Below, in pieces: positions 12,701 to 64,000 of a DNA stretch of 64,000 nucleotides. Under the pieces are notes generated by a model. It saw only the letters and a list, made by a program, of their open reading frames with translations. It made no database searches and was not told the DNA's origin. How positions within the stretch are numbered: position 1 is the stretch's first letter; the number at the start of each line of letters is the position of its first letter. The translations under genes were made by a program, and so were the position numbers. The DNA is from Chloranthus sessilifolius (taxonomy: Eukaryota; Streptophyta; Magnoliopsida; Chloranthales; Chloranthaceae). The DNA lies in contig CM037593.1 of assembly GCA_021018995.1 (NCBI GenBank), forward strand, positions 11,870,088 through 11,934,087, given 5' to 3'.

Positions 12701-13862
12701 TCGATGGTTACAACAGCCCAAAACAGGGGTTTTATAAATGCAACGACCCAGGTTTTGTAGGTAAGCAACCTGAGACCTTGTAACTCTTCAAAATAATTGG
12801 GCGCCCAAATACCCTCCTCATTCTTCACCTTATGAAACCCTACCTCTCCTCTTCTTTAAGTGAGACGAAACAGAACCTTACCTCTCCATCTCCTCTTCAT
12901 CTCTACCATTACGACAACGCTACCTCTCCTCTTCATCTCTAATTCTCTACCATTACGACAACGCTACCTCTCCTCTTCTTCAATTAGGGATACAGTTTTG
13001 TTTGAGATGAATTGATTCATTTAAACCCCAGAATAAGGGTTTTGGACTGAATATGTTGAAGATTTAGGGTTTGGTTTTTATTTGGACCCTGATTTCTCAC
13101 GAAATTTGCTAAAATATGATTTTTAGGCGGTCAATTGGTAGGGAATTGTGTTTGATGAGGATGGAGGTATTATTGAATGTTTTTAGTTAAATTTTGGTTG
13201 TTTTTCGTGAAAATTTTGATGATCAGGTCTTGGGCGTTTTCGGCCACTTTGATTCGGTCAGTGTGAACCCAACTTTTGTTAAAGAAGGTTTTTGATAATT
13301 AGGTTTCACTTGGGTGTTTGACATTCTTTTAAAAAAAAGGGAATTTTGTGTTTCAGATGTGTGAGAGTGGATGTGCCTTAATCGTTTAATTTTAGTTGTT
13401 TATCCATAGTCGGAATAAGAAAAATTTGTTGAGGATTTGATTTTTCTTACTCATTAGAAAATTTATTTTTTCCTATTTTAATGTTAGTATTGAAGTATTG
13501 GTTTTGGCCTTTTTGTTTGGTCTTCCTGATCAACGAAAGTAATGGGGGTGTTTCGTTGGTTCACTTTTGTTGTTTTGAGGAGTAATTTGTCATCAAAGGT
13601 TAGGAGCTCGAAAACACATGAAATGTTTAAGCTGAATGCTAAATTTGTGTAGAAGAACTTGTTGATGATCTGGGGTTACTGACTAAGTGAAATTGAAATC
13701 ATTTTCATTTGGTGTATTGTGGACTATAATTTCCGTAGTAAATTTTTGAATGCTTTAGTTGATTGATTTGAATCATGAGTTCTTATTTGGATCAATGATG
13801 TTTTATTTTTGTTTTATCCGCTGCCTTTTCAGTTTATCGTTTTGCCCTTTCAAGAGGAAGCT
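12701..13862 (+). other. 5'-UTR/intron-like sequence ahead of MYB3R fragment
   Basis: No coding sequence seen. At 12,830-12,985 CT-rich sequence repeats the block TACCATTACGACAACGCTAC (about 12,904 and 12,950), which looks like a plant 5' UTR. T-rich, intron-like sequence follows up to the LTR retrotransposon at 13,863. It is probably the captured 5' UTR and first intron of the MYB3R parent gene. Confidence 0.35.
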
Positions 13863-35507: not shown

Positions 35508-35915
35508 GACTAATTTTTGGCTGTTGCAGTCTACTTTTGTAGAGTGCACCTTGGGTACAACTAGGAAATTGCTGGTTACACCCATTTTTGATTTTTTTAT
35601 CATTTTGTTGCAGCCCCCTTTTATAGAGTGCACCTTGGGTGCAATCAAAAAATTGCTGGTTGCACATATTTCAATGTTTTATTTTTTTGCAGTCCACTTT
35701 TATACAGTGGACCTTGGGTGCAACCAATGAATTGTTAGTTGCACCCATTTCAATTTTTTTCTTTTTTTTTTGCTTTTGCAACCAATCTTTATAGGGTGCA
35801 CCTTAGGTGCAACTAGGAAATTGATGATTGCACCCATTTTAATTTTTTCCCTTTTTATTTTTTATTTTTTGCAGTCCACCTTTATACAGTGCGCCTTTGG
35901 TGCAACCAAGAATTC
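35508..35915 (+). repeat. Minisatellite, about five ~70-110-bp units
   Basis: Units read TGCAGTCCACTTTTATAGAG, TGCACCTTGGGTGCAACTAG, GAAATTGCTGGTTGCACCCA, then a T-rich tail of variable length. Starts are near 35,530, 35,608, 35,690, 35,775 and 35,870. GGTGCAAC/GTTGCACC within each unit can pair, so every unit contains a small hairpin. Confidence 0.75.
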
Positions 35916-35919
35916 GGTT

Positions 35920-36075
35920 TTGATTCTGGAACGGTTTATGTGTTGGAGGAATTCAGTGTACCGAAATCGAAATTGATATATTTCAGTTCAGTTTCGATTT
36001 GTGGTGTACTGAACCAAGGACTAAAAAAATCGGATTCGATTCAGTTCGGTATACCGAACTTGCATCTACATAGAA
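35920..36075. repeat. Oligonucleotide-word island (GGTATACCGAA)
   Basis: TACCGAAATCGAAATTG, TTCAGTTTCGATT, TACTGAACC, ATTCAGTTCGG and TATACCGAACTTGC words recur. It directly follows the minisatellite. Confidence 0.5.
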
Positions 36076-40229: not shown

Positions 40230-40279
40230 GAGTTCATCCCGCGAGCTCACTTTCTCTATATTTTCTTCATTCGGTCACC

Positions 40280-45495: not shown

Positions 45496-48400
45496 ATTTT
45501 TTTTTTAATCGGTAAAGACGTAATGTATTAAAAAAAACAGCGAGACACTGACCGAATACAATAGGGAGTCAGACCGACCAAAAAAAGATAAAAGAAAGAG
45601 CAAAAACAAGGGTGAAAAAAGAAAGGGGAGAATGCCAAAAAGAGGCAGTAATCGGACTACTCACCTGGCTCAGCTAAAGACCTAGCCCGGGTCCCAAAGG
45701 CGGACTTCCCCCCCATCCCCCTCTTTATCCAAGAGAATATAAAGTCACACGCTTTCTTCAGGACCATCCTGACAGGCAGGCGCTTCCGACCAAATTTGCG
45801 AACATTTCTTTCCAACCAGATGCACCACACCACCGCAAAAAACCCCACCCTCAAGAACGCTCCCAATTGTCCCCCGGGACCCACCCCCAACCAAGTGAGA
45901 AACTACTAAGAAATGGTTGGTGGGCAGACCCAATGCGTTGCAAAGAACTTAAGAATAACTCCCTAGACCTCATGGGCCGTCCTACAATGGAGAAACAAAT
46001 GAGATACGTTTTCTTCAGCTTGGAGGCACATTGGGCAGACATTTTGAATGTCTTTCCCTCTTCAAATCAATTGGTCCCTTGTGAGAATTTTCTCCTTAAG
46101 CAGGATCCAGGTAAAAAACTTTTCCTTAGGGGGAGCAGCTGCCTTCCACAAAACAGCCCACTCACACCTAATTAGAGGCCTAGAAGACAACATCTGGTAG
46201 TAAGACCTGGTATTGAACACTCCCTTCTTCCTCGGCATCCAAAACCTGGCATCAATATGAGCAGGATTTCTAATAGCACCATACATCATCTTCAGAAAGC
46301 GATGGCCCTCCTTGCAAAGAAACCTCCTGATGGCCACATCCCAAACTAGCCCCCCATGAGACTCCGAAAAAAAGCTTGCAACTACTCCGAGAGTCCAAAG
46401 CGATCCTGAAAATGGATGGAAACAAGTCTTTGAGCGGTGTGGTCTCCACCCACACGGATCCTCCCAGAATCGGATATGAGTGTCGTTACCCCAATTGAAC
46501 CACACCCATCGTGCGAAGAGGTTCCACGTCCCACATATTCCTTTCCACCAAGCCAATAAGTTTCTATTGATTGCTATGTTAATTCCCCAATTGCCTCTAA
46601 AATCCCTTTTTTTTTTTGCCAAAACTGACCACCACAGGCTCTCCTTCTCATTTTCCAAACCAGCCCGCCAAAACTACTTTCTGAGTAAAGCAATGTTCAC
46701 CTGTCTTAAAGAACGAATACCTAGGCCCCCACAGCTGATAGGAAGCTGACACATTTCCCAATTAATCAGATGGTATTTCTTGTCTATACCCGATCCTTCC
46801 CATAGAAAGTTTCTTTGAATTTGCTCCAACCTGTGGATCACAACCACCGGATAGTTGAACATGGACATGAAAAAGATCTACAAGCTAGCAAGGACTGATT
46901 TGACGACCCCCCATTGCTGAGAAGCTTCCTCGACCATGAAGAAAGACGCCGATCAAACCTCCAAAACAGCGGTTCCCAAGCCCTAGCTGACGGGTGGCCA
47001 ATCCCAAGAGGAAGGCCCAAATAGGAGATTGGGAGGACCTCGATCTCGGTGCCCACATTCGCAACAATAGCACTCAACAAATGTTCTTCAGCTCCTATCC
47101 CAGAGATTGTTGACTTGAGCAAGTTGATCCACTGCTCAGAAACCGCTTCATACACAGTGAGAACCTCCGTGTAAGCTCGAAACTCATCCACATCGGCCCT
47201 GCCAAAGAAAATGGTGTCATCCGTGTACTATAGATGGGTAACACGACGATCGTTAAGGCCCACCTGGATTCCGGAGATGAAACCCAACTGCCTGGCTCAA
47301 TGGATGAGGCCCTTTAAAGCTTCCCCAACCATATTGAACAAAAAAATGGAGAGAGGGTCCCCTTGCCTAATCCCCCTAGAGCTTTGAAAATATCTCGTTG
47401 GCGACTCATTGATGATGATAGAGAACCACACCGAAGAGTAGCAAGCTTGCATCCAACTCTTCCATCGGGCGCTAAATCTGAATCTGTTTAACATATACTC
47501 GAGACACCCTCAATTGACCCTGTCATGCGCTTTCTCCATGTCTATTTTCCAAAGTGCGGCAAGGGTACAACCACGATGATCGAAGTGAACGACCTCAAGC
47601 GTGACAACAACCTGATCCACCATCTTTCTACCATGCACAAAAGCCCCTTGGTTAGCCGAAATCAGCCTTCCCATTAAAGGCCTTAGTCGGTTCGCTAGCA
47701 CCTTTGATATAATCTTGTATAAACAGTTGACCAGGCTGATAGGGCGATAGTCCCGAAGGTCCTCTGCTCCCTCTTTCTTCAAAATAAGACAAACAAACAT
47801 AGAATTCAAAGCGCGACCAATGAAGCAGTTGTTGTGGAACTCATGGAAGACTTCCATCAGGTCGTTCTTGAGAGTAGCCCAAAAACTCCGATAAAATTCT
47901 ATGGTAAAACCATTGAGCCCTGGAGACTTATTTTTCCCACTGCATTTGATGGCCCGCCACACTTCCTCTTCCTGAAACGGCAGCTCTGTTGCTGCCTAGC
48001 CTCCATCTGAGATGGTCGGGAAAGGAATCCCATCTAGTTCGGGACTACTCCACCCCTCGTCAGTGTATAACTTTCTGTAGAAGTTGACGACTTGAGCTTT
48101 GATCCGATCCGGGTCCGAGAATACCTAGCCATCCACTGCAGTCTGCCCCAGGTAATTAATTTTGTCCCTCGCGTTGGCTGCGGCATGAAAAAATTTGGTA
48201 TTGTTGTCCCCCACTTTATGCTAGTAGGCCTTCAATTTTTGTTTCTAGCAAACCTCCTCTGCCAAGCATTTATCACTGAAGTCAGATTTCAATCTTGACC
48301 TCTTCTCTCTCTCCAACTCCGATAGATCTCTGGACTCTTCCAAATCATCCAACTCCCTTAACCTCTGAAGGATCCCCTCTTTGGCGACATGTATCAGCCC

Positions 48401-49287: not shown

Positions 49288-49679
49288 GGAAGCAACAACA
49301 TGTTGCTTAATAGAAGAACAAAAACCAAATTCTTTTCGTTCTCTTTGTAGAAAGCACTTGCAAGAATGTCGAGAGTGGACCTTTAGGTAAAATTTACTTT
49401 TGGATTGCTCGATTTCTAGCATGTTGGAATTTTGGTTTAATTTTTAATTACAGATTGATTTTTAATCATTGGTTTCGTATACTATTTCACTAGCGGTTTT
49501 AACCAAGGTAACAACAAATACCTACATATACTTATGTATATGTAGTTGATAATTCATATGCTATCTACCAAACCTGCAATTTATGTCGATATGTTTAGGC
49601 ATAGATTCAATATGTGGGTTTCTTATCAGAACTAGTAAATATTAACCTCCATATACACTGGGGATATATGATTTTGAAC
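49288..49679. other. Intergenic, nothing recognised
   Basis: No coding or repeat feature identified. Confidence 0.3.
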
Positions 49680-49975
49680 TTGGATGTGTGTATAATTGTA
49701 GATGTATCGGACCACTTAAACAGCAGACAAACCAACAACTTCTTGAGGTAATTCAAATATTACTATTTACGCCTTTTTGGTTTTCCACTATCATGAAGAA
49801 AAAATTATTTTTGTATGTATTGAAATTAGTTACAATCTGGCCTATAGGATGGATTCCAAAAGGGATCAGCAGGGTAAATCTCCGATGAGCCTATGTCAGA
49901 TGTTTACAACCTACATTGATCTGAGTAACTGGGCGAACAGGGCAGGGATACCATGCATCACGGCATGAATAATTG
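49680..49975 (+). pseudogene. Two unrecognised coding-like exons
   Basis: Exon-like piece one (about 49,701-49,745) follows an AG and precedes GTAATT; it reads CIGPLKQQTNQQLLE. Piece two (about 49,849-49,968) follows AG and reads MDSKRDQQGKSPMSLCQMFT, then TYIDLSNWANRAG, ending in a stop. The amino-acid pattern looks like conserved protein. I cannot name the family. Same strand as the captured fragments nearby, and probably another one. Confidence 0.4.
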
Positions 49976-50499
49976 TGGCCTGTGGAGCAAATCTTAGAGG
50001 TGTGTTTTTTGTTTCTTTAAGTGATTATATTTATGATAGTGTGGACACTGGATAATTCATAAAGGTGGTGATGAGTTTAAATTGTATCTAAAGAGTATGG
50101 ATTCTCATGGTTTATATTGTTGTGATGTTCATACTGTTTTGTTCAATTATGATTTGACTTACCAAAGGGGCATGGGCACCCAACTATCTGGCTTCAGGTG
50201 AAGGTGTAATCATGCACAAAGCAAAGTACTATCAATTGTTAGAACTTTATTTTATGATTTTGTTCAATTGAATGATACTCTTGTCACCGTACCTATATAC
50301 GCTTCAAGACATCCTAGTTCTAACATGGCAGTGTGGACTCAACCATCTGATTTTTTCACTTGTAATATTTTTAGCCCATATTTCAGGTTCTGGAAGTTTT
50401 ATGTGTAGGGTGGGGCCTTGCTTTACAACTCAAGATTCGTCTCTCTAAACATAGGTTTCACCTTCCTATACCTTGACTGCTTTAACTGGTTCGGTAGAG
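49976..50499. other. Intergenic, nothing recognised
   Basis: Non-coding, mixed composition. Confidence 0.3.
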
Positions 50500-50930
50500 A
50501 TTGCTTTTAGTACCATTCTTTGACACGGTAGATCTTGAGATCATTATCCTACCATCACTACAAAAATAAGGTGTTTTAGTGGCACTTGCTGTTAAGGCAA
50601 TTTTTAATAGCGGCAAGACTAATAGCGGCAGTTTTTGGTAGCGACAGGACTAATAGCACCAGTTTTTTGTTAAAAAAATTGCCGCTAATAGTCTTATTTT
50701 TTGTAGTGCATCAAGTGACCAGATTTAAATCCACGCTGCACACATGCCAAAAAATTAACATGATCATGGGTACATCAAACGTGATTCTCGTATCACATTT
50801 AGGGATGCATACCATGTGGAATCAAACTAATAGCATCTGATGCTAGGACCATAATCTCAAGGTCTATTGTGGAAGGTTGGGAAGAAAATTGATCTCCATC
50901 TTATAATTCAACAGTCATAGTTTAATGAGG
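50500..50930. repeat. Dispersed-repeat copy interrupted by a CACTA MITE
   Basis: The blocks ATCTTGAGATCATTATCCTACCAT, CACACATGCC, ACCATGTGGAATCAAAC and the tail TCAAGGTCTATTGTGGAAGG match the family described at 37-40 kb. The MITE at 50,556-50,708 splits it. Confidence 0.5.
50556..50708 (+). mobile_element. CACTA-type MITE, 153 bp
   Basis: It starts CACTACAAAAATAAG and ends CTTATTTTTTGTAGTG, flanked by a perfect 3-bp duplication CAT (50,553-50,555 and 50,709-50,711). The interior is built of TAGCGGCA.../...TGCCGCTA units, the same subterminal repeats as in the CACTA 3' end at 62,540-62,814. It could move only with a transposase supplied in trans. Confidence 0.9.
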
Positions 50931-51275
50931 TAAATGATTCTTCAAAAGCTTGATATTCTTATGGTGCCTGGGACGCTTCATGCCTCATTAGTCTTTTAAA
51001 ATTCTGCACTTTATAGTATTCATCCTTTGAATAGCATTTCTTTCATATGATGTGAATGTAGCAGTTTGTTAAATCCGAACTTATTTACTATAGTCATATG
51101 CCTAATTATAGTTTAGGGTAGGAGTTTTATCTACTTTGTACCCATGGAGCTACTTCAACCGAAGTTGGAGTTATCCATGCCTCCATGCCTTGGAGTCTCT
51201 GGTGAAATGCTTACGCTAGTCCAATTGGTACTATAGATGTATTTGGTTGGGAATGATGAACTTCTACTTAGTTGT
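50931..51275. other. Intergenic, nothing recognised
   Basis: Non-coding; ends in the CACTA terminus. Confidence 0.3.
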
Positions 51276-51400
51276 CACTACAAAAAAAAAAAAACAAAGG
51301 GGGTTTTAGTGCAGCTCTCCGATGGAACTACTGGCGCCCATTTATCTAAACCACCGATAGAATAACAACATTAACCCGCTAAAGTTAAGCAAACCCATTT
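51276..51400 (+). mobile_element. CACTA 5' terminus (candidate left end of the 11.5-kb element)
   Basis: CACTACAAAAAA begins at 51,276 and is preceded by TGT (51,273-51,275). The 3' terminus at 62,814 is followed by TGT (62,815-62,817), matching a 3-bp CACTA target duplication. The first 10 bases match the inverted 3' end. A shared GTTTTAGTG word occurs near this end and near the left end of the 50,556 MITE. The AGCGGCAG subterminal repeats seen at the 3' end are not obvious here, so pairing of the two ends is a hypothesis. Confidence 0.55.
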
Positions 51401-51780
51401 ATTTCATTTTCCCTCTCTCCCGCTCTTCCCTAAATCACAAGCTCAATCCCCTCTCTCTCGCTCCATTTCCCTCACGCTCCATCTCCCTCTTCGAAACCCT
51501 AGCCTCCATCGTCCTCTTTCAAACCCTAGCAAGAGATTTAAATTACAGAATCGAAAGGAGATCTGTGTTGAAGGTTGGAGACGACGCCATTGAAGCAGAG
51601 ATCGGCGTTGAAGGTTTTCTTTTCATCAAGCTCGAGTTTTGGAGCCATCGTTTCACCATTTGGCGGATGGAAATCGAGTTTTGGAGCCCTCGCTCTATGA
51701 TCACCGCTCGCTTCGTGTTTGTCATTTGGTTTTCGATCTATATCATTGATCCGTGGAGGATTCTTCAGTTTCATAGGTAA
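51401..51780 (+). pseudogene. Captured 5'-UTR and first exon of an unrecognised gene
   Basis: CT-rich 5'-UTR-like sequence with CTCTCTCTCGCTCCATTTCC and GAAACCCTAGCC runs from the CACTA end to about 51,540. A GC-richer stretch follows, open at 51,565-51,780, then CATAG|GTAAGG, a good splice donor near 51,777. The peptide contains two similar segments (KLEFWSHRFTIWRM and EIEFWSPRSM) and no motif known to me. Plant gene leaders often look like this, so I read it as a captured first exon. Confidence 0.4.
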
Positions 51781-52227
51781 GGTCTATGAAACCCTAATTA
51801 TTTGATGTTGAATCGGTGATCTGTTGCCCTAAATCTTTCAGATCTATTCATTTCCGATTTCGTTTTGTTTTTTTTTTTTAAATATAAAGCTCGATATTTA
51901 GGTTTGTGTTCTTGATTTCATCGTTCATAGATCTACTCTGTAAACTTGTACAAATTGTCGGTATCGGCGTTCGAATCGTCCCATAGAAACTGTATCGAAT
52001 AATTTCATTGTTGATAAATCTACTGTGTATATTAGTACATTTTTTTTTTTTGGGGGTAAGTAGTACAAAATGTTGGTATAGCATTTTTTATTTTGATTAG
52101 TATTGCTGAAACAAGTTACTGACAACAGTATTAATTTTGATTTTGATCTTTGGATGATTGATTTTGATTTTGATATGTTGATTTCAAGGCTCTAAAGTTG
52201 TGTATGCACAGCTGAAAGTGTATTTTA

Positions 52228-52258
<31 letters not shown>

Positions 52259-52688
52259 CTTTCTGGTTTGATGAAATGCCTCAAAGAATTTTCTTCTATT
52301 GAATACTTTTATTTAAATTTTTTTTAAAAACATATTTTTGTTTCAAAAAGTTTCCAGTTTAGTCAATCTGATGGAGGACGAACCATCAGACTGTCAAATT
52401 TTTATTTCACATGGCACACATCCCAAAAAATGACCTTCAAATCAGATTTGGGCGTGATGAGTTTCACATGATGTTAAAGTCACTTTTTTAAGATGTGTGC
52501 ATCGTCAAATAAAAAACTGCCCTTTGAACTACTAGTAATGTAGGCCTTTTTGTTGTCGGAAGCATATGTTTAGCTCTTTTACTCAATAATACAACTTTCA
52601 AAAAAAAGAAAAAGAAATGTGTTAAAAGGTCCTAACCTCGAATTTTGAAAGAAATTTATGAATTGGTGAATCATTTGATTGTTCTAGT
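51781..52688. other. Intron-like sequence with microsatellite and dispersed repeat
   Basis: T-rich intron-like DNA. A TA dinucleotide run lies at 52,231-52,258. At 52,355-52,545 a copy of the 37-40-kb dispersed repeat is recognisable (ACCATCAGAC, ATTTCACATGGCACACATCC, AAGATGTGTGCATCGTC). No gene. Confidence 0.4.
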
Positions 52689-52800
52689 CACTACAAAGAA
52701 TATAGGTTACGTCGACGGTTGCTTGTTGGGCAGCCGTCGGCGTAGGATCAAAACATATACCCTCCTCGGGACTAAACTCACACGGTCTCTACTTCCTCTG
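52689..52800 (+). mobile_element. CACTA 5' terminus, second family
   Basis: CACTACAAAGAATATAGG begins at 52,689, preceded by AGT. It is followed by the inverted pair CGACGGTTGC...GCAGCCGTCG (52,713-52,730), a subterminal palindrome. No 3' end followed by AGT was found. Captured MED26c sequence starts within 300 bp. Confidence 0.6.
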
Positions 52801-52802
52801 AA

Positions 52803-52804
<2 letters not shown>

Positions 52805-52838
<34 letters not shown>
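52805..52838 (+). repeat. CT dinucleotide microsatellite
   Basis: About 17 CT units, probably part of the 5' UTR captured with the MED26c first exon. Confidence 0.85.
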
Positions 52839-52840
<2 letters not shown>

Positions 52841-52971
52841 CTCGGGCCCAAGCTCATGATGATTGTAGATCTGGTTGCGGATACGTAGATGATTAAAAGT
52901 TGAAAATAAATCTCATCAGATTTGGAGAGATCTAAAGCAAGGGGTTTCATTTCTTCAGTTTGCATATCTTA

Positions 52972-53480
52972 ATGGATTTAGATGATTTCCGGTCGATTTT
53001 GAGGAATTCAGACGTAGATCTATGAACTCTAATGGACATTGTGATTTCAATAGCTTCTTCCGAGTACGCAAACGAATTGAAGGTGCGAAGAGACGGGATC
53101 GTCGAACGCCTCTACACTTTTCCTGTTCCTCCTTGTAGAAATTGCAGTCTCGATGTTCCGAGGCTGAGCAGTAACGAAATCAAAGGGCAAACAAAGGTAA
53201 TCGATTGATCTCAATCCTAATTTTCTCTAAAAAAAAATTTGTTTTTTTATTTAATTTTTGTTGATTGGCTCGAATTCGATTATTATTTCAGTCCGCCGAT
53301 TCTCTGGTTAATCTGCTTCAAACTCTCGCAAACATGGACATTACATTCAAAGCTCTCAAGGTACAAAATTTTGATAAATTATTATTATTTTTAAATCTTT
53401 CACTCTCGAGTCTCAATCCTTCTTCGTATTTTTCTTTTCAATGTTAGGAAACCGATCTAGGAAGGCACATTGCCTGGTTT
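52972..53480 (+). pseudogene. MED26C: MED26c (Mediator subunit 26, TFIIS N-domain) fragment
   Basis: Exon 1 (52,972-53,196) starts MDLDDFRSILRNSDVDL, the characteristic start of plant MED26c, and continues SIASSEYANELKVRRDGIVE, then RLYTFPVPPCRNC. A TGA at 53,023-53,025 replaces the Trp codon expected after VDL. Exon 2 (53,292-53,360) reads SADSLVNLLQTLANMDITFK, then ALK. Exon 3 (from 53,448) reads ETDLGRHI and then diverges. Donors (GTAATC, GTACAA) and acceptors (TTTCAG, TGTTAG) are intact. MED26-type proteins link Mediator to elongation factors. Most of the TFIIS N-domain and the C-terminus are missing, so this is a captured non-functional fragment. Confidence 0.85.
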
Positions 53481-53637
53481 TGTTTCTCTATTTTACTTAT
53501 ATTTTTTGGAAATCTTATGTATAGATCTGTTGACTAGAATTTTTAAATGGCAGCACTTAGGTTATTATACTACTAATATTATTATTATTGGTTTTAAGGG
53601 TTTGCTAATCTTACCTAACCTAATTTTGGTGATATAG

Positions 53638-53790
53638 GGTGTAGCCCATAATCTATTTGATGAAATGCGACATAAAAATCTGAGTTTATGGAAAGCATTA
53701 TTGATGATTTACTATTTAAAGAATGCAAGGCAATTGTTTGATGAAATGCCAGAGAGAAATGTTGTTTCCATGGCTTTAAGTATTGGTCGA
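53638..53790 (+). pseudogene. PPR protein fragment
   Basis: After an AG acceptor the frame reads GVAHNLFDEMRHKNLSLWKA, then a shortened spacer and ARQLFDEMPERNVVSM. LFDEMxxxNxxSW is the hallmark of plant pentatricopeptide repeats (PLS class), which bind organellar RNA. Two repeat cores lie closer than the usual 31-35 residues, so an internal deletion is likely. Only about 45 residues remain. Confidence 0.75.
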
Positions 53791-54085
53791 TACATATCAA
53801 GTTAGGCCCCCTTCGATACGAATATACACCCGATTCTGTATGGGGACAAATATTGGGTCATATTAGACCATATCGGCCAATATGTATCAGATATGAACCT
53901 GAAAAAATTACCAAAAATGCCCTTTCACATTTTTTTTTTACTTTTTTGTATTTTTATTATTTTATAAATAAAAAAGGTGCCTAGATATCAGTCGGTTTGG
54001 CCGATACGTATCTGATATATCTGATACCTATCAACCCAGGACTTGCCCGATATGCCGAAATATATCGGACTTTAAATCCCTAGTT
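53791..54085. repeat. Oligonucleotide-word island (GATACG/CCGATA)
   Basis: GGTCGATACATATC, TTCGATACGAATA, CATATCGGCCAATATG, GGCCGATACGTATCTG, CTGATACC and CCGATATGCCGAAATATATC words recur irregularly. The end reads TTTAAATCCCTAG. Confidence 0.55.
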
Positions 54086-54544
54086 GTCTCCTTTATATTA
54101 TGTTGTTGGTAAATGGATATGCAGTGACCGATGACATTAAGCTAGAACTAGAGTTTTTTTGCCTCACATTGACGTTCAACTATTACAATTAAAAAATTGA
54201 TAGTCCTACGATAATAATGCAAGTATAGAGAATCAACTTGGTTAATCCATGAGAGATGGGAAAATTATTAAGGCAGCATTTTGCCTCATTTATGTTCTCG
54301 AATTTCCCAGCCTAAAACATTCATCCATTCTACTACAGGTATGGTGGGTAATTTTCAGATTCCCCAGCCTGAATTGGTATGGTTTTCATCCAGCCTGAAA
54401 CATTTCCCAGCCTGAATTGGTATGGTTTTCATCTATGGATTAATTTTCAGATTTTGGACCTGGAACCGAGCATGGCTAGTACACAATATAATTTTTATGT
54501 TAGGTTACTTTTATACTAGCCAGTACATTACCGGTATGTATCGT

Positions 54545-54745
54545 ACTGGTTAGGGCTGTCAACAGGTTGGGTTGGGTCGGGGCCAAAATTTTGGCTGCCC
54601 ATTAGGAAAATGGCATGTGCCCGACCCAACTGACCCGACCCGACCTTATGATATATTCGACCCGATCCGACCCGACTTGATGGTGCATTCGACCCGATCT
54701 GACAAGGTGGTTCACTCAACCCGATCCAACCCGACTCGACCACGC
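54545..54745. repeat. Oligonucleotide-word island (GACCCGACCCGA)
   Basis: It begins TTAGGGCTGTCAACAGG, then GGGTTGGGTCGGGG, CCCGACCCAACTG, CCGACCCGACC, GACCCGATCC and CAACCCGACTCGACC recur. GGTTGGGTCGGG returns at 54,787. An ATG microsatellite follows (54,812-54,830). Confidence 0.6.
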
Positions 54746-54839
54746 AAAAAATCTCCATTTTTCATGTTTTTTGTATGTAAAATATTGGTTGGGTCGGGTA
54801 TTAATGGATATATGATGATGATGATGATGATTTAATATA

Positions 54840-55323
54840 AAAACGACTAGAGAAACAGTGAACTGACACTCATAATATATGGTTCTGAGAATAAAAAAGG
54901 AAATAGCTACATGCTATTTATACTATATGCTATCTCGTCCAGCAGGGTGTACCTAAGGGCTTAACAGCTGAAATGCAGAATTAAGGCAGTCAGGTCTTGT
55001 GAAGCAAGGTGTCCTTGTGGTGTGAGCCTTGAAATTTTATATAAATTATTGTTAATTCAGAAACAAATTGATAAGAGATTGAAACAAGATAGAGATAAAT
55101 GTAAAACTAATAAAAAAGCATGTCGAAATCCTGACAAGTAACTAAAAAGTTTCATTATTGGGAGTAAATTAATCATTGAATTAATATAGATTTGTGTCTT
55201 TGAAGAAGTATCAACTACCAAGTGTGTAACTGATAAAAAATTAACATGCAACTATGGTTCCTATTCAACTGTATTGAATCTTATTCAAATGTATTATTTC
55301 CCTCATGATCGATGCTTCTGTAG
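54840..55323. other. Non-coding spacer between captured fragments
   Basis: No coding sequence recognised. AT-rich, ending in the acceptor of the HD-ZIP III exon. Confidence 0.35.
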
Positions 55324-55458
55324 CTCTGTAGTGGAGTGGATGAGAATGCTGTTGGTACCTGTGCTGAACTCGTCTTTGCTCCAATTGATGCATCTCTCGC
55401 TGATGATGCTGCATTGCTACCTTCTGGTTTCCGCATCATTCCTCTTGACCATGGGGTG
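55324..55458 (+). pseudogene. HD-ZIP III transcription factor exon
   Basis: Between a TGTAG acceptor and a GTGAGT donor the frame reads LCSGVDENAVGTCAELVFAP, then IDASLADDAALLPSGFRIIP. This is the highly conserved segment after the START domain of class III HD-ZIP proteins (REVOLUTA/ATHB8/PHB), which set organ polarity and vascular patterning. Only this one exon is present, and the flanking exons of the family are absent. It is open and conserved over 45 codons, so it is either a recent capture or merely short. The miR165/166 target site of the family lies in another exon and is not here. Confidence 0.85.
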
Positions 55459-55831
55459 GTGAGTACATTTCTAGTAACAGAAATTTAATTATTTTTTACT
55501 ATATATGCAGTTTCTGGAATTTAGGTTGTCTAGATAAGCTCTTGCGAAAGCAGTGGCACTTAAGTAACTTTTCTTTTTTCCATTAATAGTTTGTTTTTGT
55601 TAAATGCCTCACTGTTAAAATAATACAGGATGCCTTCAGTCTGAACTGCACATTGGACCTTGCTTCTTCATAGACAGGATGCCTCACTTTTAAATTATTT
55701 ATGTGATTATTTATCGGCTAGGAAGTTCTGAAGTTTTCCCTTCCCTGTTATGTTCATGATATTTTATTTTTTTGAGTTTGTTAGCTTTCTTCACGACTCA
55801 TATACAAAAATCTGTGTTCCTTTTTTTAAAG

Positions 55832-56640
55832 GTTTTATCTCAAAGAAATGCTGCCAAAGCAGCGGCAGCAGGAAAATTCAATGATGAGATTATCCCTGTA
55901 CATACAAAGGTTTGGAAGCAATAGCTTTCTTATCACATTTAATCAAATATTAATCTGAAGTTTCAGAACGAAATGAAAATTTTGAGACTCTTGCAGGTCA
56001 TTGATAAACAAAATGGAAATGAAAGATCAATCATGGTTTTGGCTGATGAAGGAATTCGGCCCAATACTTCACTTTCTGTTTTAGCTAAGCTCAAACCTTC
56101 ATTCAAAGTTGGTGGAACTAGCACTGCAGGTACAATTTCTTTCATTAAGATTTCCATGGTTTAGTAGCAAAAGTAAAGCATCAATTTGAGGTCGGCTTTG
56201 CGTGTCTTATTTCTTCATGTAATAAAACTGATCATTGGGATTTGACTGGCTTTTAGAGCCAGCTGTCAACAAGACGCCGACCCTCCTCCTTTGTCATTTG
56301 GGCTTGGACTGGAATGGTGGTGTTATAATTTTTCCATATTCAATACCCAATTGATATACTTTAAATTCAGGCAATTCGAGTCAAGTTAGTGATGTTGCTG
56401 CAGCTATAATGCTTATGAGAAAGGAAGTCGCACTTCAGAAATGCTTTCTAATACTTGAATTTTCAGGTACTTATTACAAACATTTTGATTTACCTTCTCT
56501 GGTATCTTATGATATATATAATTTTTCCAATAGTTGGAATTTTCAGAGATGTTTTTCTGCTGACGGAGTTAAGCCAACTGTCATGGGTATTGGTCCTGCA
56601 TTTGCAATCCCTGCTTGTATTATTCAGTCAACCGGAGAGT
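55832..56640 (+). pseudogene. KAT2/PED1-like: Peroxisomal 3-ketoacyl-CoA thiolase fragment (four exons)
   Basis: Four exons in order with intact splice borders. 55,832-55,909: SQRNAAKAAAAGKFNDEIIP. 55,997-56,129: VLADEGIRPNTSLSVLAKLK, then PSFKVGGTSTAG. 56,371-56,466: GNSSQVSDVAAAIMLMRKEV. From 56,547: RCFSADGVKPTVMGIGPAFA, then IPACII. The thiolase motif GNSSQVSDGAGA has GAG changed to VAA, and some substitutions look relaxed. The enzyme carries out the last step of fatty-acid beta-oxidation in peroxisomes and glyoxysomes. N-terminal catalytic-Cys and C-terminal His/Cys regions are absent. The last exon runs directly into VARICOSE sequence near 56,640. Confidence 0.85.
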
Positions 56641-57407
56641 TGATACTGCTTGTATGAACTTGTCTGATCTTCCTCCTGTGGATGTTAGTTCTGGAAACGA
56701 TGAAACTAAAATTGGGAACAATGATATTTCTATGGTGCCGAGTCCTATCCCTTTCAAACACCCAACACATGTAATAACTCCATCAGAAATATTATCTAAG
56801 GTTGTTTCTTCCTCTGAGACTACACATGTTACTCAGGGTCTGTGGAGGGGAGAAACAAAAGCTCAAGATGTGATTGTTAACACTGATTTGGAGAGTGTAG
56901 AAGTGGATATTAAAGTTGTGGGGGAGAGCAGGTCTGATCAGAATGGAGCATTTGACCCTCAGTGTGAACCAGATGTTCTTGCAGATGCGAGAGAGAAACC
57001 CTTTTTTCTCCCAAGCTTCAGAACTTACTATGGAAATGTTAAGAGAATGTCGTTTATTGTCAACCGAAACTTTTATTGTGGAGGAAACACGCCAAATTGA
57101 AGATGTTGGTATTACTGAGGCTTCGGCGCAGCCTTTACATGGTAGTGAGGAAGGTGTTTCCTCAAGGGATTTGCCTGAAAAGGGTGCTGAATCTTCTACA
57201 GTGGAAGCAGTTACACAATCGCCTTTATCGGCTGCAAGAGCAAAGAAACAAGAGGGGAAACACTCTCAATCGTCAGGCCATTCATCACCTTTTCCAAGCC
57301 CTTTCAACTCCACAGATTCTTTAAACGAACAAGGTAGCAACATGAATGGCTCTAATACAGTGGCTGTTTTTTCTCAGATTCTGAACATGCAGGAAATGTT
57401 GAACCAG
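56641..57407 (+). pseudogene. VCS: VARICOSE (EDC4-like decapping scaffold) fragment
   Basis: The frame reads CMNLSDLPPVDVSSGNDETK, then PIPFKHPTHVITPSEILSKV, the conserved HPTH-ITPSEI segment of plant VARICOSE. VKVVGESRSDQNGAFDPQCE follows. At a T-run near 57,000-57,010 a frameshift occurs, and the next frame continues FFSQASELTMEMLREC, then HSSPFPSPFNSTDSLNEQGS and SQILNMQEMLNQ, stopping at a GTGATT donor (57,408). VARICOSE scaffolds DCP1/DCP2 in mRNA decapping. The WD40 N-terminus and the C-terminus are missing. There is no intron between the thiolase piece and this one. Confidence 0.82.
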
Positions 57408-59563
57408 GTGATTCGTTTATTGTCATTTTCATATGTACATATATAATTGATGTTTGTTTATGAGATCGGTAAAAAGTTGTTATTAGAGAATCTTTATACC
57501 TTTTTGATACAAAAGAGCACTTTAGTTCATTCTCAGACATCAACAAGAAGAAAATAAACTTCTCCTGGTTTTATTATTAAACAGTAATGCATTATCTATA
57601 ATTTCTTTTAGTTCTTTATGCAATCGTGTTAATGATAAAATATATCCGTATTAGAGTACTCATCCCAACTGAAAAATGTATATGAATTGGACAATACCAT
57701 GTTCATTTTTCGCTTAAATGATTGCAAAACTAGAAAAACAATATTAAAAAGCTGTTATTGTTTGGTTAGCTGAAATTTGTGATTGTTGGGATAAACATAT
57801 TGTTAAACCATGCTAGGAGAGAAACAAATGGGCATCGCTAACTCATTAGCTACGGAAGGAACTTCAGAGAATCTATATGTATAGGGGGGAGAGTTTCATC
57901 ATTGCTATATGTTGTAGATAATTATTTTTAATTTCTTTGATAAATACTACAATCACAAAAACTTTACAAAGATGAAAAATATAAATGCATAATCATCATT
58001 TGCAGTCCCAACTTTGATAGGGAACTTAGTTGTCTCTCCCCACATAATTGTTGCATCCGATTCCTACCATTCATACATGCATGTCTCGGATTATCTCAAT
58101 ATATTCATTTGGAATTTATTTCCTCCTTAGCGTCCGCCTGAACCTTCTTTAGATCGATAAAAACCAAAGGTAATCGTTTCCACCTTTCTCCAAACTTGTC
58201 CTTCAGTTGCCTCAACAAGAAAATGACTTAAAGTTGGGGATATTTGATCGGAGGAGAGGGAAATTAAGGAAAGGAACTGAAAACAATTGGGAATTTTGGA
58301 GTTCTACAGGGGATTTCTCAATGCTAGATAGAGTTTCAAAAAGAAAAAAAGTTCAAATTTTTTTCCCCAGTGATTTGGTGAGTGTGCCAAGCAAAATTTC
58401 AGTTTTTGTTCCCCAGTGTTTCATCAAGGGGGAAATATCTGGTTTTCCATGTTAGAGAAAAAGAGTTTTATCTATAAATTCCACTTTCTTTTACCTCAAA
58501 CAAGATTATTATACTGTATTGACCTGGAAATTGTAACTAATAATTTGGTAGTGAATCATCCAAAGAACTTTTGATGTTGGATACATGGGTAACCTTTGAT
58601 GAGGGAGAGCTCTTTGAAGGTTTCTGAGAATTTGCTTATGCAGATTTGGGTTTATAAATCCATGGACTTTGAGCTTGCAGGAATCCATAGAATTCCTCTG
58701 TTTTCTGCTTTTTGCTACATGGGGTTGCTGCAGGAATCCAAAAGAAAATGGAGAAGACAAGTTGCTTTAATAAAAAAATAAAATAGATTGGTTTAATAAA
58801 CTTCACACCGCTATATTTGATTCTCTGAGAGCTTGGAAAATGAAAATCCGTGGGTATCTGTTGTATTTTTCTCTCAGAAATGAAGGATTTTTGGACTCAA
58901 CTTTCAGTGCCTTAAATCGTATCCAAACAGTGATTTAGCTCAGATTTCAAAATCCAACCCTTAGGATTCCTCTGTTTTCCCTGTATCCAAAGATACTGTT
59001 ACTTGAAAGTCTTAGATAAAGGAACCAACAGTAATAGATCATTTCAATTTTAAGATGTCTAGTACATGCTGTATTCCGTTTATTTTTGGTAGCGAAGTTG
59101 GGTATTTTTTGTTAGTCAAGAATCAGTTTATTTGATGTTTTAGTTTTGGATAACCTTTGACCTCAACAATTTCTGATGAGCACTATCTACTTTTTCCAAC
59201 TTCAAGTACACAGATACTCCGATAACTTTGTTTTCTATCTATAACTTTTTGTAGTATGCTCTCATTTGACTGATAGCTCATTTTATCAGGACCTTATTGT
59301 TGCTTTACTTGCATGTATGTACAAGTGAATAAACTCTACCCTCTCCCCCCACCCAATACACACACACATGACATGAAGTATTACAATCACCAAAACAGGA
59401 ATTTGTATATCTTGAAATGTAATAATTTTCTTCACACTAATTCCTTATGACTATGAGATTCTTCGCACCTAAATGTTGTTTAGAGAAAAGTTCCTAGTCT
59501 GATACTGTGATGATATTGGTGACTCTGATTCTAACCAGTCAATTATGACTAAATATCATGCAG
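57408..59563. other. Long non-coding spacer between VARICOSE and NPR fragments
   Basis: No family recognised in 2.1 kb. Open patches at 58,207-58,455 and 58,596-58,781 have no known motif. It may combine a captured VARICOSE intron, other captured non-coding DNA and the NPR intron 1. Confidence 0.35.
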
Positions 59564-60154
59564 CGCTGACTTCTTAACTTTGTTGAGAAGGCCCTTATGG
59601 AAGACGTGATACCAATCCTTCAAGTTGCCTTTTATTGCCAACTTAGTCAATTAATCTCCAACTGTGTTCAAAGACTAGCGCGGTCAGATCTTGACAGCAT
59701 ATCTCTAGAGAAGGAGCTCCCAATCTCAGCCGCTGATGAGATCAAATCACTCCACCTTACATCTCGGTTGGATGAACCTGAAATACCATCCATTGACCTC
59801 CTCAGTGAAAAAAGAATCAGGAGAATCCACAAGGCACTAGATTCAGATGATGTTCAACTTGTAAAATTGCTGCTGTCTGAATCTAAGATTACCTTGGATG
59901 AGGCCAATGCTCTTCACTATGCTGCTTCATATTGTGACCCTAAGATTGTGGCTGAGGTTTTGGAAATGGGATTGGCTAATATTAATCTAAAGAATGCAAG
60001 AGGATATACAGTTCTCCATGTGGCTGCTATGTGTAGGGAGCCATCAGTAATTGTGGCTCTGCTGACAAAGGGTGCAAATGCGTCAGAGGCGGCTTCTGAT
60101 GGTCAAAATGCTGTTATGATATGTAGGAGGATGACAAGGGCAAAAGGATAACTA
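59564..60154 (+). pseudogene. NPR3/NPR4-like: NPR3/NPR4-like BTB-ankyrin fragment (exon 2)
   Basis: After a CATGCAG acceptor the frame reads R, then TGA (59,567-59,569) where Arg is expected, then LLNFVEKALMEDVIPILQVA. It continues with the post-BTB region and ankyrin repeats: IRRIHKALDSDDVQLVKLLL, ALHYAASYCDPKIVAEVLEM, ARGYTVLHVAAMCREPSVIV. It ends RRMTRAKG-stop where the family continues with a PK-D-Y segment. NPR3/4 are salicylic-acid receptors acting with CUL3 and TGA factors in plant immunity. The BTB exon and the NPR1-like C-terminus are missing. A protein could start only at the internal Met (59,597), giving 184 residues. Confidence 0.88.
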
Positions 60155-61133
60155 GAGGTTTGTTTCTGCATGTTGTAGGTATACATGTAAGATCTAACGG
60201 TACTAGTTACTTGGACATGCTCAAGGTGCAACGATAAGATAGAGGTATAATATATTTATTTTTGCATTGCTTTTTTCATTCAAATCAGTTATTTTCTTAA
60301 GTTATAGGTGGAAATGATAGAGCTATAGCTGTAAAGTAATTAAAAAATGTAGCTGGAAATGATGTACTCAAATGTAGCTGGAAATGAATTATGGCTGGCA
60401 TAGTATTCTCTGTTTTTCATTTGCATGCCCTGCTAAAACTCTCAGTTTTATTATTGGAATTTCTGAACCTTGAGAGTTTTGACATATGTTTGTGGTACTG
60501 TTTACAGATGCATGGAAATTCGTTCCAGAGGAAGCTTGCAATAGAAATATAATGGCTTTGGTGATATTCCACTGTGCAGGTTTTTGGGCTATGACATTGT
60601 TGGCGTTGGGTTGATCTAGGCACAATCGGATGATTGCAGTCATTCAAATTTATCATTTTCATGGATCCTTATAAATGTCATCCTTATCTGATATAGACTA
60701 TGTAGGAGGCGTTGAATTTGTTTGATTCCATAAACTGAATCTGCATCCCTACTCATACTGTAGGGATACCATCAATAGAATTCATGATTCTTATTTTTTC
60801 TAATAAAATTTTAAAAAAGGATTTAAATGACATGGTCACTATGGTTGAAATAAATGCCTATTTTCATCCATTCTCTAGTAAATTGTAAGTTGTAAAAACC
60901 AGAGTAGATGGGTCAAATTGAAACTGAGGTTCCATGCTCACCTCAAACTGGTTTTAGCTGATCACTTCTTTAAAATCAAATAGGTTGAGAAGGAGAACTT
61001 ATAGAATAATAAAGGGGATGGATTTCATTTAAGTCTGCCGAACTTTTTCTTTTGTTTGAGATGTGAAAGATGACGATTTCAGCAAAAGTAAATTTAAACC
61101 ATCTGATCATGAGACATGTTCTTGTTACTGCAG
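60155..61133. other. Non-coding spacer
   Basis: Intron-like DNA. No recognisable exon. A short patch near 60,490-60,560 (CMEIRSRGSLQ) is open on several frames and not diagnostic. Confidence 0.35.
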
Positions 61134-61390
61134 GCGGAGAGTCCTATAAACATCTACGAGGAAGCCGAGGATCGATTCCGAGCATGGTACTTGCCTTCAC
61201 ATAATTTCACACTCATGGCCTTTTGGAGAAAATTCCTAATAGCATAGAACAAGTAATAAATGGTTCATCTTCGGGCGTGTTTGACATCCACCTAGACCAA
61301 ATTGATGACAAGTGGACATCGAAACTCGTCGGGATCAACTACGCCATCATATCTGCCAGCAGTGGCAGTGTTGATGGAACTAAGAAAAAG
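61134..61390 (+). pseudogene. TRICHOME BIREFRINGENCE-LIKE (TBL) acetyltransferase fragment
   Basis: After a TGCAG acceptor the frame reads AESPINIYEEAEDRFRAWYL, then PSHNFTLMAFWRKFLIA and a stop. One frame over it continues EQVINGSSSGVFDIHLDQID, then DKWTSKLVGINYAIISA. Together these match the YFPSHNFTL..W..FLV and FDLHLDK.D..W segments of the TBL19-26 group of plant TBL proteins, Golgi polysaccharide O-acetyltransferases. A single frameshift lies near 61,235-61,245. The GDS and DxxH catalytic segments are not included. It ends at a GT after AAGAAAAAG (61,390). Confidence 0.75.
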
Positions 61391-61943
61391 GTTGGAATGA
61401 GTTACAAATGCCAAAAATTTTGGGTTGTTTTCTTATTTTAAGAGTATCCAGAAAGCCTCAAATATTCTGAGAAGTAGTTGTCCTGAAATCCATAGAGATG
61501 AATCATGTATGCTTAAATGGGCCCTTCACATGAGGTGTCCAATATGACTTTTGGTTTGGTTTCTTGTGCATCAAATTTAAGGTTTTCATTTAAAAATGCA
61601 TATCATCCACAAATCCCTACAGTCCATGGATTTTAAAGAAAAATTCCAACTTCCTAGTCTAGTAGTCTGACAAAAAGTGCTTCTCATCCAATTTTTTCCA
61701 CCAAATCAAGATTAAGGTGAACTTAATTTTATGAATTATCCTTTATGAAAGACTGAAAGATTGACTAGATTAGGTAAGTCAATCTAAGTTCATTGCAGTC
61801 TTAAATTAGTCAGTTTTAGATTCACTTTTATATCTAAATGATAATAACATGGGGAAAAAAAGAGATGATCTACCCATGTCACTAAGATGCCACAGATTTG
61901 TCCTGTGAGAGCTGATTTCAAAATTTGGTGTGGTGGTTTGCAG
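61391..61943. other. Non-coding spacer
   Basis: Intron-like DNA; no exon recognised. Confidence 0.35.
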
Positions 61944-62054
61944 GGTGTGGCAACAAACTTTGTGCGCAACGACGACATCAGGATTCTAAGAGACATAGAG
62001 CAGTTCTATAGCACACAAATTGACGAAATGCCGATGAATGTTGCTGATCTGATA
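61944..62054 (+). pseudogene. EIF4A: eIF4A C-terminal exon
   Basis: After a TTTGCAG acceptor the frame reads [20 protein letters not shown], then [17 protein letters not shown]. This is the last exon of plant eIF4A, the DEAD-box helicase of the cap-binding complex. In eIF4A the protein ends at ADLI/ADLL. Here the stop is absent and translation runs straight on into CSI1-like sequence. All earlier helicase motifs are missing. Confidence 0.9.
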
Positions 62055-62313
62055 TACAATCTGATCTCAGAAACAGGCATTCCTCCTCTTGTTCAAATTC
62101 TAGAAGCAGGATCTGCAAAAGCCAAGGAAGATTCCACAATTATGCTTGGAAATCTCTGTACTCAGCGAAGATATGCGGGCATGTGTCGAAAACGCCGATG
62201 ATGTTCCTGCTTTATTATGGTTGCTGAAAAATGGAAGCCAAAATGGGCAAGAGTTGCAGTGAAGACATTGAACCATCAGCCAACTCACTTCTTTACTAAC
62301 TAGTGATCTGCCA
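62055..62313 (+). pseudogene. CSI1: CSI1 (cellulose synthase interactive 1) armadillo-repeat fragment
   Basis: In frame with the eIF4A exon the sequence continues [20 protein letters not shown], then [12 protein letters not shown] frameshift near 62,165 follows, and then [21 protein letters not shown] further shift and a short deletion lead to TISQLTSLLTSDLP. This matches the armadillo repeats of CSI1/POM2, which links cellulose synthase complexes to cortical microtubules. Only about 85 residues of a protein of roughly 2,000 remain. The word CCATCAGCCAACTCACTTCT is duplicated at 62,273 and 62,311. Confidence 0.85.
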
Positions 62314-62539
62314 TCAGCCAACTCACTTCTTTGCTTTCTGCTGTCCCTTTGAGTGATATATTTTTTCTTTTTGTACTGTTGTAAAAAGACGATGCTGATG
62401 TTCGAATTATAGTCGACATATTTTTCTTTTTGTACTATTGTAATTCTTACTTTTAATTCAATTGAGTTTCATATTCTCCCAATAAGTTTTCCAATCAGTT
62501 TTCCTATTTTACTTTTATCTGAACCTCTATATCCGCAAA
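62314..62539. other. Spacer between CSI1 fragment and CACTA 3' end
   Basis: Non-coding, with a repeated TATTTTTCTTTTTGTACT word (62,360 and 62,420). Confidence 0.35.
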
Positions 62540-62814
62540 GCTTCTAATGGGCATCTCCCTGTTTGTAACGGCGGTATAAATATGGTAGCGGCAGTTTTTT
62601 AGTGGTTGTCACTATTATTAGCAACTTAGCGGCATCAGTTGTAAAAACTGCCGCTAATATCCTTACCGGTGGTTGTAAAAACTATCGCTAAAACAAAGTA
62701 GCGACAGCACTAGTAGTGGCAGTTTTTACAACTGCCGGTGAGGGTATTAGAGGCAGTTTTTTTATTAATAGCGGCAGTTTTTGGCTGCCGCTAATAATCT
62801 TATATTTTGTAGTG
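62540..62814 (+). mobile_element. CACTA 3' terminus with subterminal repeats
   Basis: The segment ends CTTATATTTTGTAGTG (62,814), followed by TGT. Ahead of it are at least eight units of TAGCGGCAGTTTTT or its inverse AAAAACTGCCGCTA. The same units build the MITE at 50,556-50,708, so both belong to one CACTA family. No own 5' CACTAC end lies within 300 bp, so this is the right end of a larger element. Confidence 0.82.
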
Positions 62815-63165
62815 TGTTTTCTTTGTTCTACTGAGTGAATGCAAATATATATTATTTTAAACCTCGGGTGATGCACAAATACCTAAGAAAACAAACAAAT
62901 GGATCACACAATATTTCCTTGTAGATGTTCCATTGCTTGATTCTCTAATCTGCTTATCTCGCTAATATAAAATCAATCCATAGTCCTCTCTGTGTATAAA
63001 ATCAATCCACAACGATATATTTTATTTAATTTTTGCATTTATCCCAATGTAAAAAATCTTTGAAAAATACTATGAGAAATTCTCAAATTGATTTTGTAGG
63101 TGGGCGCTTTTAGAGATTGTGTGGGTATTAATAGAGGTAAGCTACTGGTATTATAAAATAATCCA
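62815..63165. other. Intergenic, nothing recognised
   Basis: AT-rich; no ORF or repeat of note. Confidence 0.3.
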
Positions 63166-63455
63166 TCGTTGCAACATGTCTTAGCTAAAGTATTATGCTT
63201 ATAAGTGGATGAAAATCGTCCGGTTGGTGAACTCTAATATCAGCCATCAAAATTAAGAATAATCATTGATATTAGAGTGCACAGATCAGATGATTTGAAT
63301 CTTCTAAAACATGTGATTTTTTTACCAATAGCCCTTCAATTGGTGATATATCACTTTGACGGGGCGGATTTTCAAGATCATAAGCCAATAAATGGTCTAA
63401 GATTGTTTAAACACTATTTGGTGCTTAAATGATATTTAGATAATCGGTCCTTTAA
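63166..63455. repeat. Dispersed foldback-family copy
   Basis: GCTTATAAGTGGATG, ACTCTAATATCAGCCATCAAA and AGATCAGATGATTTGAATCTTC match 43,570-43,680. The end contains TTTAAACACTATTTGGTG-like words of the same family. Confidence 0.5.
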
Positions 63456-64000
63456 TAAATCACTACATCTTTATTTTTTTTTTTGAGAGGACTACATCTA
63501 TATGTGTAGATCCTTTATTAAGCATTTTTGCTCAAGAAATTCTACAATTCAATCGGACTCTATTCTAATTTTAGCATATTTAATGTTTTTAGTAAAATCT
63601 TAAATATTAATATCCTAATTTTAATCGTTTCCTACTAAGGTTTTTCACTTGTCTAATATTTAAATAATCCTAAAGATTTTATCTTATCCTCTTGTAATCG
63701 CACGTTACTTTGAATACTTTTAAAAAGTAAGGTGGAATGGGTTATAAAAATTAGGAGCCCTTCTTCCTAATGTTGATGTTTGGTATTTTTTGATGGAAGT
63801 GAACTAAATATCATCATTATCACGTTCTCCTTGTACCAATTGAAATCCCAGGTGGAGTCAAGCTTAATATCAACAGCGCACGTAACCCTTGTTATAGATG
63901 TGGCGTAGGCCTCGTAGAATCGACGTTGTGTAATCGTTTCACATCAAACTCTAACATGCAATGTTTACTATTCTTCAGTAAGCTGGCGAGAGTGCCTCCG
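63456..64000. other. Intergenic, nothing recognised
   Basis: AT-rich, no coding sequence seen up to the window end. Confidence 0.3.

Follow-up and report, generated by a model that had tools for sequence, protein, structure and literature searches.

How do pieces of nine unrelated host genes come to follow one another on a single strand of a plant chromosome? The question is raised by a 64-kb stretch of Chloranthus sessilifolius contig CM037593.1 (assembly GCA_021018995.1; referred to here, at its full length, as the window), for which an initial annotation had proposed an array of gene fragments captured by a transposable element. Here, we confirmed that fragments of nine gene families lie on the plus strand, at about the coordinates first proposed (52972 to 62335). 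They are probably part of a larger unit (51276 to 62814), and our analysis favors reading this unit as a decayed, nonautonomous transposon of about 11.5 kb, bounded by CACTA ends and a TGT duplication, that collected pieces of nine host genes in a Pack-CACTA-like manner. Capture from many donors was the best reading of the locus, although only part of that proposal was supported; in its favor are retained introns and CACTA ends flanked by the same 3 bp. Gene-collecting CACTA transposons are already established, and this element is chiefly notable for the number of its fragments. The mechanism by which cut-and-paste elements capture unlinked genes is still debated.

Fragments of nine host genes on one strand

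We compared 12 proteins, selected from 360 fetched proteins and representing six of the nine donors (KAT2, eIF4A-III, and TBL were outside this test), with the whole window by tblastn. All 24 resulting pieces fell inside the array and on the plus strand, whereas shuffled queries (n = 120) gave zero matches in the same 64 kb. Assuming independent captures, the common orientation of the nine fragments would arise by chance with a probability of 2 × 0.5^9 = 0.004. Seven of the donor names given initially were upheld by sequence comparison (MED26c, PPR, HD-ZIP III, thiolase KAT2, VARICOSE/EDC4, NPR3/4, and CSI1). The name TBL has the weakest support, from a Pfam match obtained when two frames were joined, and the label eIF4A, with the role in translation attached to it, was wrong: the piece derives from eIF4A-III, a protein of the exon junction complex (59.9 bits versus 37.4 bits for eIF4A-I).

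The MED26c piece (52972 to 53471) consists of three exons (52972 to 53196, 53292 to 53360, and 53448 to 53471) separated by two GT/AG introns. It was matched by protein P0241 in tblastn (E = 1.8e-35 and 1.7e-8) and keeps its start codon, but it contains an in-frame TGA and lacks about residues 75 to 135 of its relative. It is followed by a PPR gene piece of two PPR-like units (53641 to 53793; P0265, tblastn E = 3.6e-9), whose Pfam PPR matches fell under the curated cutoff; the PPR family is too large for the donor gene to be named. A separate 23-bp stretch at 52266 to 52288, left of the array start given in the initial annotation, is 78 to 87% like these two units (a FDEMPQR-type motif) and is perhaps another PPR relic. 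The HD-ZIP III piece (55261 to 55670, ATHB-15 type) comprises an exon ending at 55458, an intron, and a second exon (55629 to 55670); the exons join at GV/DA as in Tasmannia, with P0236 matching as GV/DASSPNRTLDLAS. Its best tblastn match had E = 4.5e-21, and it scored 84 to 93% to ATHB-15 proteins in matches that covered this piece alone (20 to 21% of the query). The peroxisomal 3-ketoacyl-CoA thiolase piece (KAT2 type, 55832 to 56605, outer limits approximate) has four exons and three GT/AG introns; joined, the exons align to KAT2 (PDB 2c7y, residues 184 to 308; E = 2.5e-36). Eight residues absent from this alignment exist in the window in diverged form (CFLILEFS), outside the query.

Joined directly to the last thiolase exon is the VARICOSE/EDC4 piece (56606 to 57407; P0181 and P0190, best E = 4.9e-49), which has one frameshift near 57000 and terminates at a donor site. 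The NPR3/4-type piece (59564 to 60145) is a single large exon that follows an acceptor site and has TGA as its second codon. It matched NPR1 in PDB with E = 1.5e-42 and showed 90% identity over 199 residues to the EukProt transcript product P0001 (residues 179 to 377) and 75% to Tasmannia lanceolata, values by which an early-branching angiosperm is the probable host. An exon-like stretch that follows an acceptor at 60480 to 60640, between the NPR and TBL pieces, is possibly a tenth fragment. The TBL-type acetyltransferase piece (61134 to 61390) retains both acceptor and donor and carries a frameshift. This is the weakest of the nine identifications: Pfam PC-Esterase was matched with E = 7e-12 when two frames were joined and with 0.025 from one frame, the sole PDB match was an unrelated antibody chain (E = 0.58), and no TBL protein was among the matches listed (120 of 224). 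The last exon of eIF4A-III (61944 to 62054; E = 2.6e-15) reaches the C-terminal residue and continues in frame into an armadillo piece of CSI1 (CELLULOSE SYNTHASE INTERACTIVE 1; 62070 to 62335; tblastn E = 1e-14), in which we found a frameshift, an internal deletion, and a 25-bp repeat.

The fragments had also been described as having intact introns and splice borders, and this held in part. Whole introns are present in three of the nine pieces (MED26c, HD-ZIP III, and thiolase) and at least one border in four more (VARICOSE, NPR, TBL, and eIF4A-III); none was seen for PPR or CSI1. Since introns were kept, genomic DNA rather than mRNA must have been captured, at least for the intron-bearing pieces. 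The description of most pieces as broken fared similarly. Five pieces clearly carry stops, frameshifts, or deletions (MED26c, VARICOSE, NPR, TBL, and CSI1), and HD-ZIP III probably does, whereas the thiolase, PPR, and eIF4A-III pieces are without visible breaks and are just incomplete. Most of the captured copies have thus decayed, and reading frames so disabled indicate that no protein-coding function is being maintained in the array. If the array is transcribed, its retained splice sites would yield chimeric RNAs, mostly untranslatable. Upstream of all fragments, a CT-rich stretch resembling a 5' untranslated region (51361 to 51778, plus strand) ends at a good splice donor (ATAG/GTAAGG) and had no Pfam match; judging from these features, it is possible that it serves as the leader exon of the array. 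Because the majority of pieces still have splice sites and match proteins clearly, they call for caution in gene annotation.

Probable CACTA ends around the array

The window contains six copies of the sequence CACTACAAA, versus 0.62 expected. Two copies, which the initial annotation did not mention, face inward and enclose all nine pieces: a candidate left end at 51276 to 51284 on the plus strand, an exact match with TGT just before it, and a right end at 62806 to 62814 on the minus strand (TTTGTAGTG), with TGT just after it. TGT thereby flanks both ends as a matching 3-bp target duplication. CACTA elements usually have such a 3-bp duplication, as well as subterminal repeats on both sides.

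The right end is very probably a real CACTA end, because it resembles a neighboring miniature CACTA element (miniature inverted-repeat transposable element [MITE]) and carries a cluster of subterminal motifs. The MITE (50556 to 50708, plus strand, 153 bp) is complete, has its own target duplication (CAT), and belongs to the same family as the right end. Over its last 29 bases, the right end of the array matches that of the MITE at 93% identity, and the two have the subterminal motif TAATAGCGGCAGTTTTTGG in common. With up to two mismatches, a shorter form of this motif, AGCGGCAGTTTTT, had 11 matches in the window versus 1.38 expected; nine of the 11 were in the MITE and the right end, with six between 62587 and 62782. 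The right subterminal region (62577 to 62805, minus strand) contains seven scored copies of TAATAGCGGCAGTTTTT in both orientations (62583 to 62784). These copies scored 13.7 to 27.4, compared to a best score of 11.8 in the interior of the element. The total motif score of the right end (78.4) is high by construction, as is that of the MITE, since the scoring matrix was derived from the copies in these two places.

The left end is less sure than the right as a true CACTA end. Over an extended stretch it resembles the MITE left end (P = 0.018 to 0.029), but several observations count against reading the two ends as a pair. The left end has no subterminal motif cluster (score of 9.9, reached in 23% of the other segments scored), and its gapped similarity to the motifs was marginal (P = 0.05 to 0.13) in a test that is not independent of the MITE comparison, one of the four motifs being the MITE left end itself. 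Likeness between the left and right ends was weak (P = 0.06 to 0.15). One random pair in 64 would show a 3-bp match, and we considered three left ends. Moreover, a CACTA pentamer at 62610 also has TGT before it, so that a solo element of 205 bp on the right side is conceivable; however, a strong motif copy at 62583 falls outside such an element. Because left subterminal repeats were looked for and not found, we refer to the element as Pack-CACTA-like and not as a proven Pack-CACTA.

Two other candidates for the left end were rejected. One, a CACTA-like left end from another family (CACTACAAAGAATATAGG..., 52689 to 52760, plus strand), is an orphan: no partner was found for it, it showed no similarity to the other ends, and it is preceded by AGT and not TGT. 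Outside this site, the interior of the element has no exact CACTACAAA. The left end of the MITE (50556) was rejected since the MITE is flanked by a separate duplication, CAT. The MITE is oriented like the element and lies 0.6 kb upstream of it, a position compatible with the local insertion described for Pack-CACTA elements (PMC8903248).

A Pfam scan of the element found a transposase domain in 0 of 57 stop-to-stop open reading frames of at least 55 amino acids; apart from those to the known pieces, all matches were weak and fell below the cutoff. Elsewhere in the window, we observed an open frame of 922 amino acids encoding an NB-ARC/LRR disease resistance protein (40232 to 43000), pieces of a LINE-type reverse transcriptase (46062 to 47995, minus strand; Pfam zf-RVT and RVT_1 matches), a direct duplication with a spacing of about 2009 bp and 93 to 97% identity (13862 to 16798), and a 66-nucleotide unit in five degenerate tandem copies (35522 to 35932).

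Possible capture mechanism and alternative origins

We infer that the two CACTA ends form a single element, which was probably moved by transposase supplied in trans from an autonomous relative, and that most pieces probably entered as copies made while element-associated breaks were repaired, with the repair polymerase switching templates. Gap repair may involve template switching. Two junctions bear on this proposal. At the KAT2/VARICOSE junction (about 56605), exon is fused to exon with nothing between, and at the eIF4A-III/CSI1 junction (about 62055 to 62070), the last eIF4A-III residue continues in frame into CSI1. In the fusion model for Pack-CACTA elements, neighboring insertions become joined by deletion or mutation of their internal terminal inverted repeats (TIRs) (PMC8903248), and remnants of element ends are therefore expected between captured pieces unless they have been lost. 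A 2026 review presents the fusion model for Pack-CACTA while allowing for an undiscovered alternative (PMC13317346). Given the two exon fusions and the lack of any recognized element end at the junctions except 52689, we favor template switching in repair; the sequence suggests this mechanism together with one possible element fusion, in which the orphan end at 52689 may mark a joining of two elements. With nine donors, two clean exon fusions, a common orientation, and one internal end, the locus offers several junctions for which, given the donor sequences, fusion and template switching would predict different outcomes.

In a stronger version of this proposal, a single CACTA-family element acquired all nine exon cassettes downstream of its own 5' untranslated region-like leader exon, through serial template switching and not by fusion; their common orientation would then be determined by the way in which the element was transcribed or replicated. 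We hold this fuller scenario only tentatively and judge it improbable as a whole; if true, the element would rank with the largest CACTA capture arrays described and could serve to test how capture proceeds.

Direct exon-to-exon fusions and a weak left end would also fit an origin of the array as filler DNA, in which one or more double-strand breaks had been patched with copied pieces of genes and CACTA elements had inserted nearby before or afterward. Gene duplication by break repair at CACTA insertions has been reported for wheat (attributed to Wicker 2010 in PMC4290129). However, nine genic donors in one orientation are unexpected of random filler, and a matching target duplication frames the entire array; we regard filler DNA as unlikely.

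Slightly less likely still is that the fragments were gathered by rolling-circle capture in a Helitron, with the CACTA ends representing separate insertions or a later frame. Many donors per element are typical of maize Helitrons, which carry 0 to 12 fragments (mean of 3 in the larger group; PMC3288121). We scanned the 64 kb for Helitron ends. The 3' end of a Helitron is marked by a hairpin and CTRR, with T as the next base. Four plus-strand sites of this form were found in the window, none of them inside the array, and two on the minus strand, one of which (62710) falls within the right CACTA subterminal palindrome; eight resampled sequences gave 0 to 2 sites per strand. The scan was a simple one, and a diverged end could escape it.

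Other classes of element received no support. A Pack-MULE was rejected, as no long TIRs surround the array. Among 15 inverted pairs of at least 18 bp in 49500 to 64000, a single pair of 26 bp brackets the array (50611 to 50636 with 62643 to 62668), and it corresponds to the CACTA motif common to the MITE and the right end; the two inverted pairs of at least 40 bp in the window do not span the array. Long direct repeats of the long terminal repeat type were not found around the array among the 20 of 21 direct-repeat families listed.

It is very unlikely that the array is an assembly artefact joining unrelated sequence: the window contains zero N bases, two junctions lie within exons, and stops, frameshifts, or deletions relative to their relatives mark five or six of the fragments, which are therefore not misjoined intact genes. 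Least credible of all is a chimeric host gene or a tandem pseudogene cluster from one ancestral locus, for although all pieces share a strand and most have splice sites, they represent nine unrelated families, reading frames are broken, and the Tasmannia lanceolata relatives of NPR, ATHB-15, EDC4, and MED26c lie on contigs of five sizes (64.5, 34.1, 71.6, 50.8, and 58.4 Mb). One NPR copy and ATHB-15 are both assigned a 64.5-Mb contig and may share a chromosome; nevertheless, the differing contigs make a single ancestral locus unlikely for those four donors. A CACTA-bounded capture array thus remains our preferred reading.

Comparison with known gene-capturing elements

A close parallel in content is Tgm-Express1 from the soybean wp allele (PMC1947982), a CACTA element of 5.7 kb that holds five mutually unrelated gene fragments; splicing of their exons gives rise to many chimeric RNAs. 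On our reading, both are CACTA elements carrying several unrelated host gene fragments, including exons, introns, and splice sites. In Tgm-Express1, however, transcripts and insertion are proven, whereas the present element, at about 11.5 kb and with nine fragments, has a weak left end. Members of the Tpn1 family of Ipomoea nil are likewise nonautonomous CACTA elements, in which host genic sequence has taken the place of the interior; the family, with 339 copies reported, is known to give chimeric transcripts (PMC5105172). Tandem repeats occupy both subterminal regions of Tpn1, in contrast to the missing left repeats here. Among the elements identified in the same report, 32 had large subterminal rearrangements and were judged inactive.

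Pack-CACTA and other Pack-TYPE elements of Arabidopsis, maize, and rice similarly have TIRs and target site duplications around captured coding DNA and no transposase (PMC8903248). Capture from multiple loci was reported there, with the most distinct loci in maize Pack-CACTA. The difference lies at the junctions: internal ends are expected under the fusion model, whereas here there is one orphan end (52689) and two plain exon fusions. CACTA capture is also known from wheat, with 140 events on chromosome 3B (PMC4290129). In number of fragments, the array compares with maize Helitrons, which hold up to 12 per element (PMC3288121), but it differs from them in having TIRs and a 3-bp duplication and in that no Helitron end was found in our scan. 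For a single CACTA element, the largest count found in the published accounts compared was five fragments, the supplementary maize tables being outside the comparison. We claim no record; still, apart from the maize table, the nine same-strand donors assembled here exceed those of any single CACTA element that we found described.

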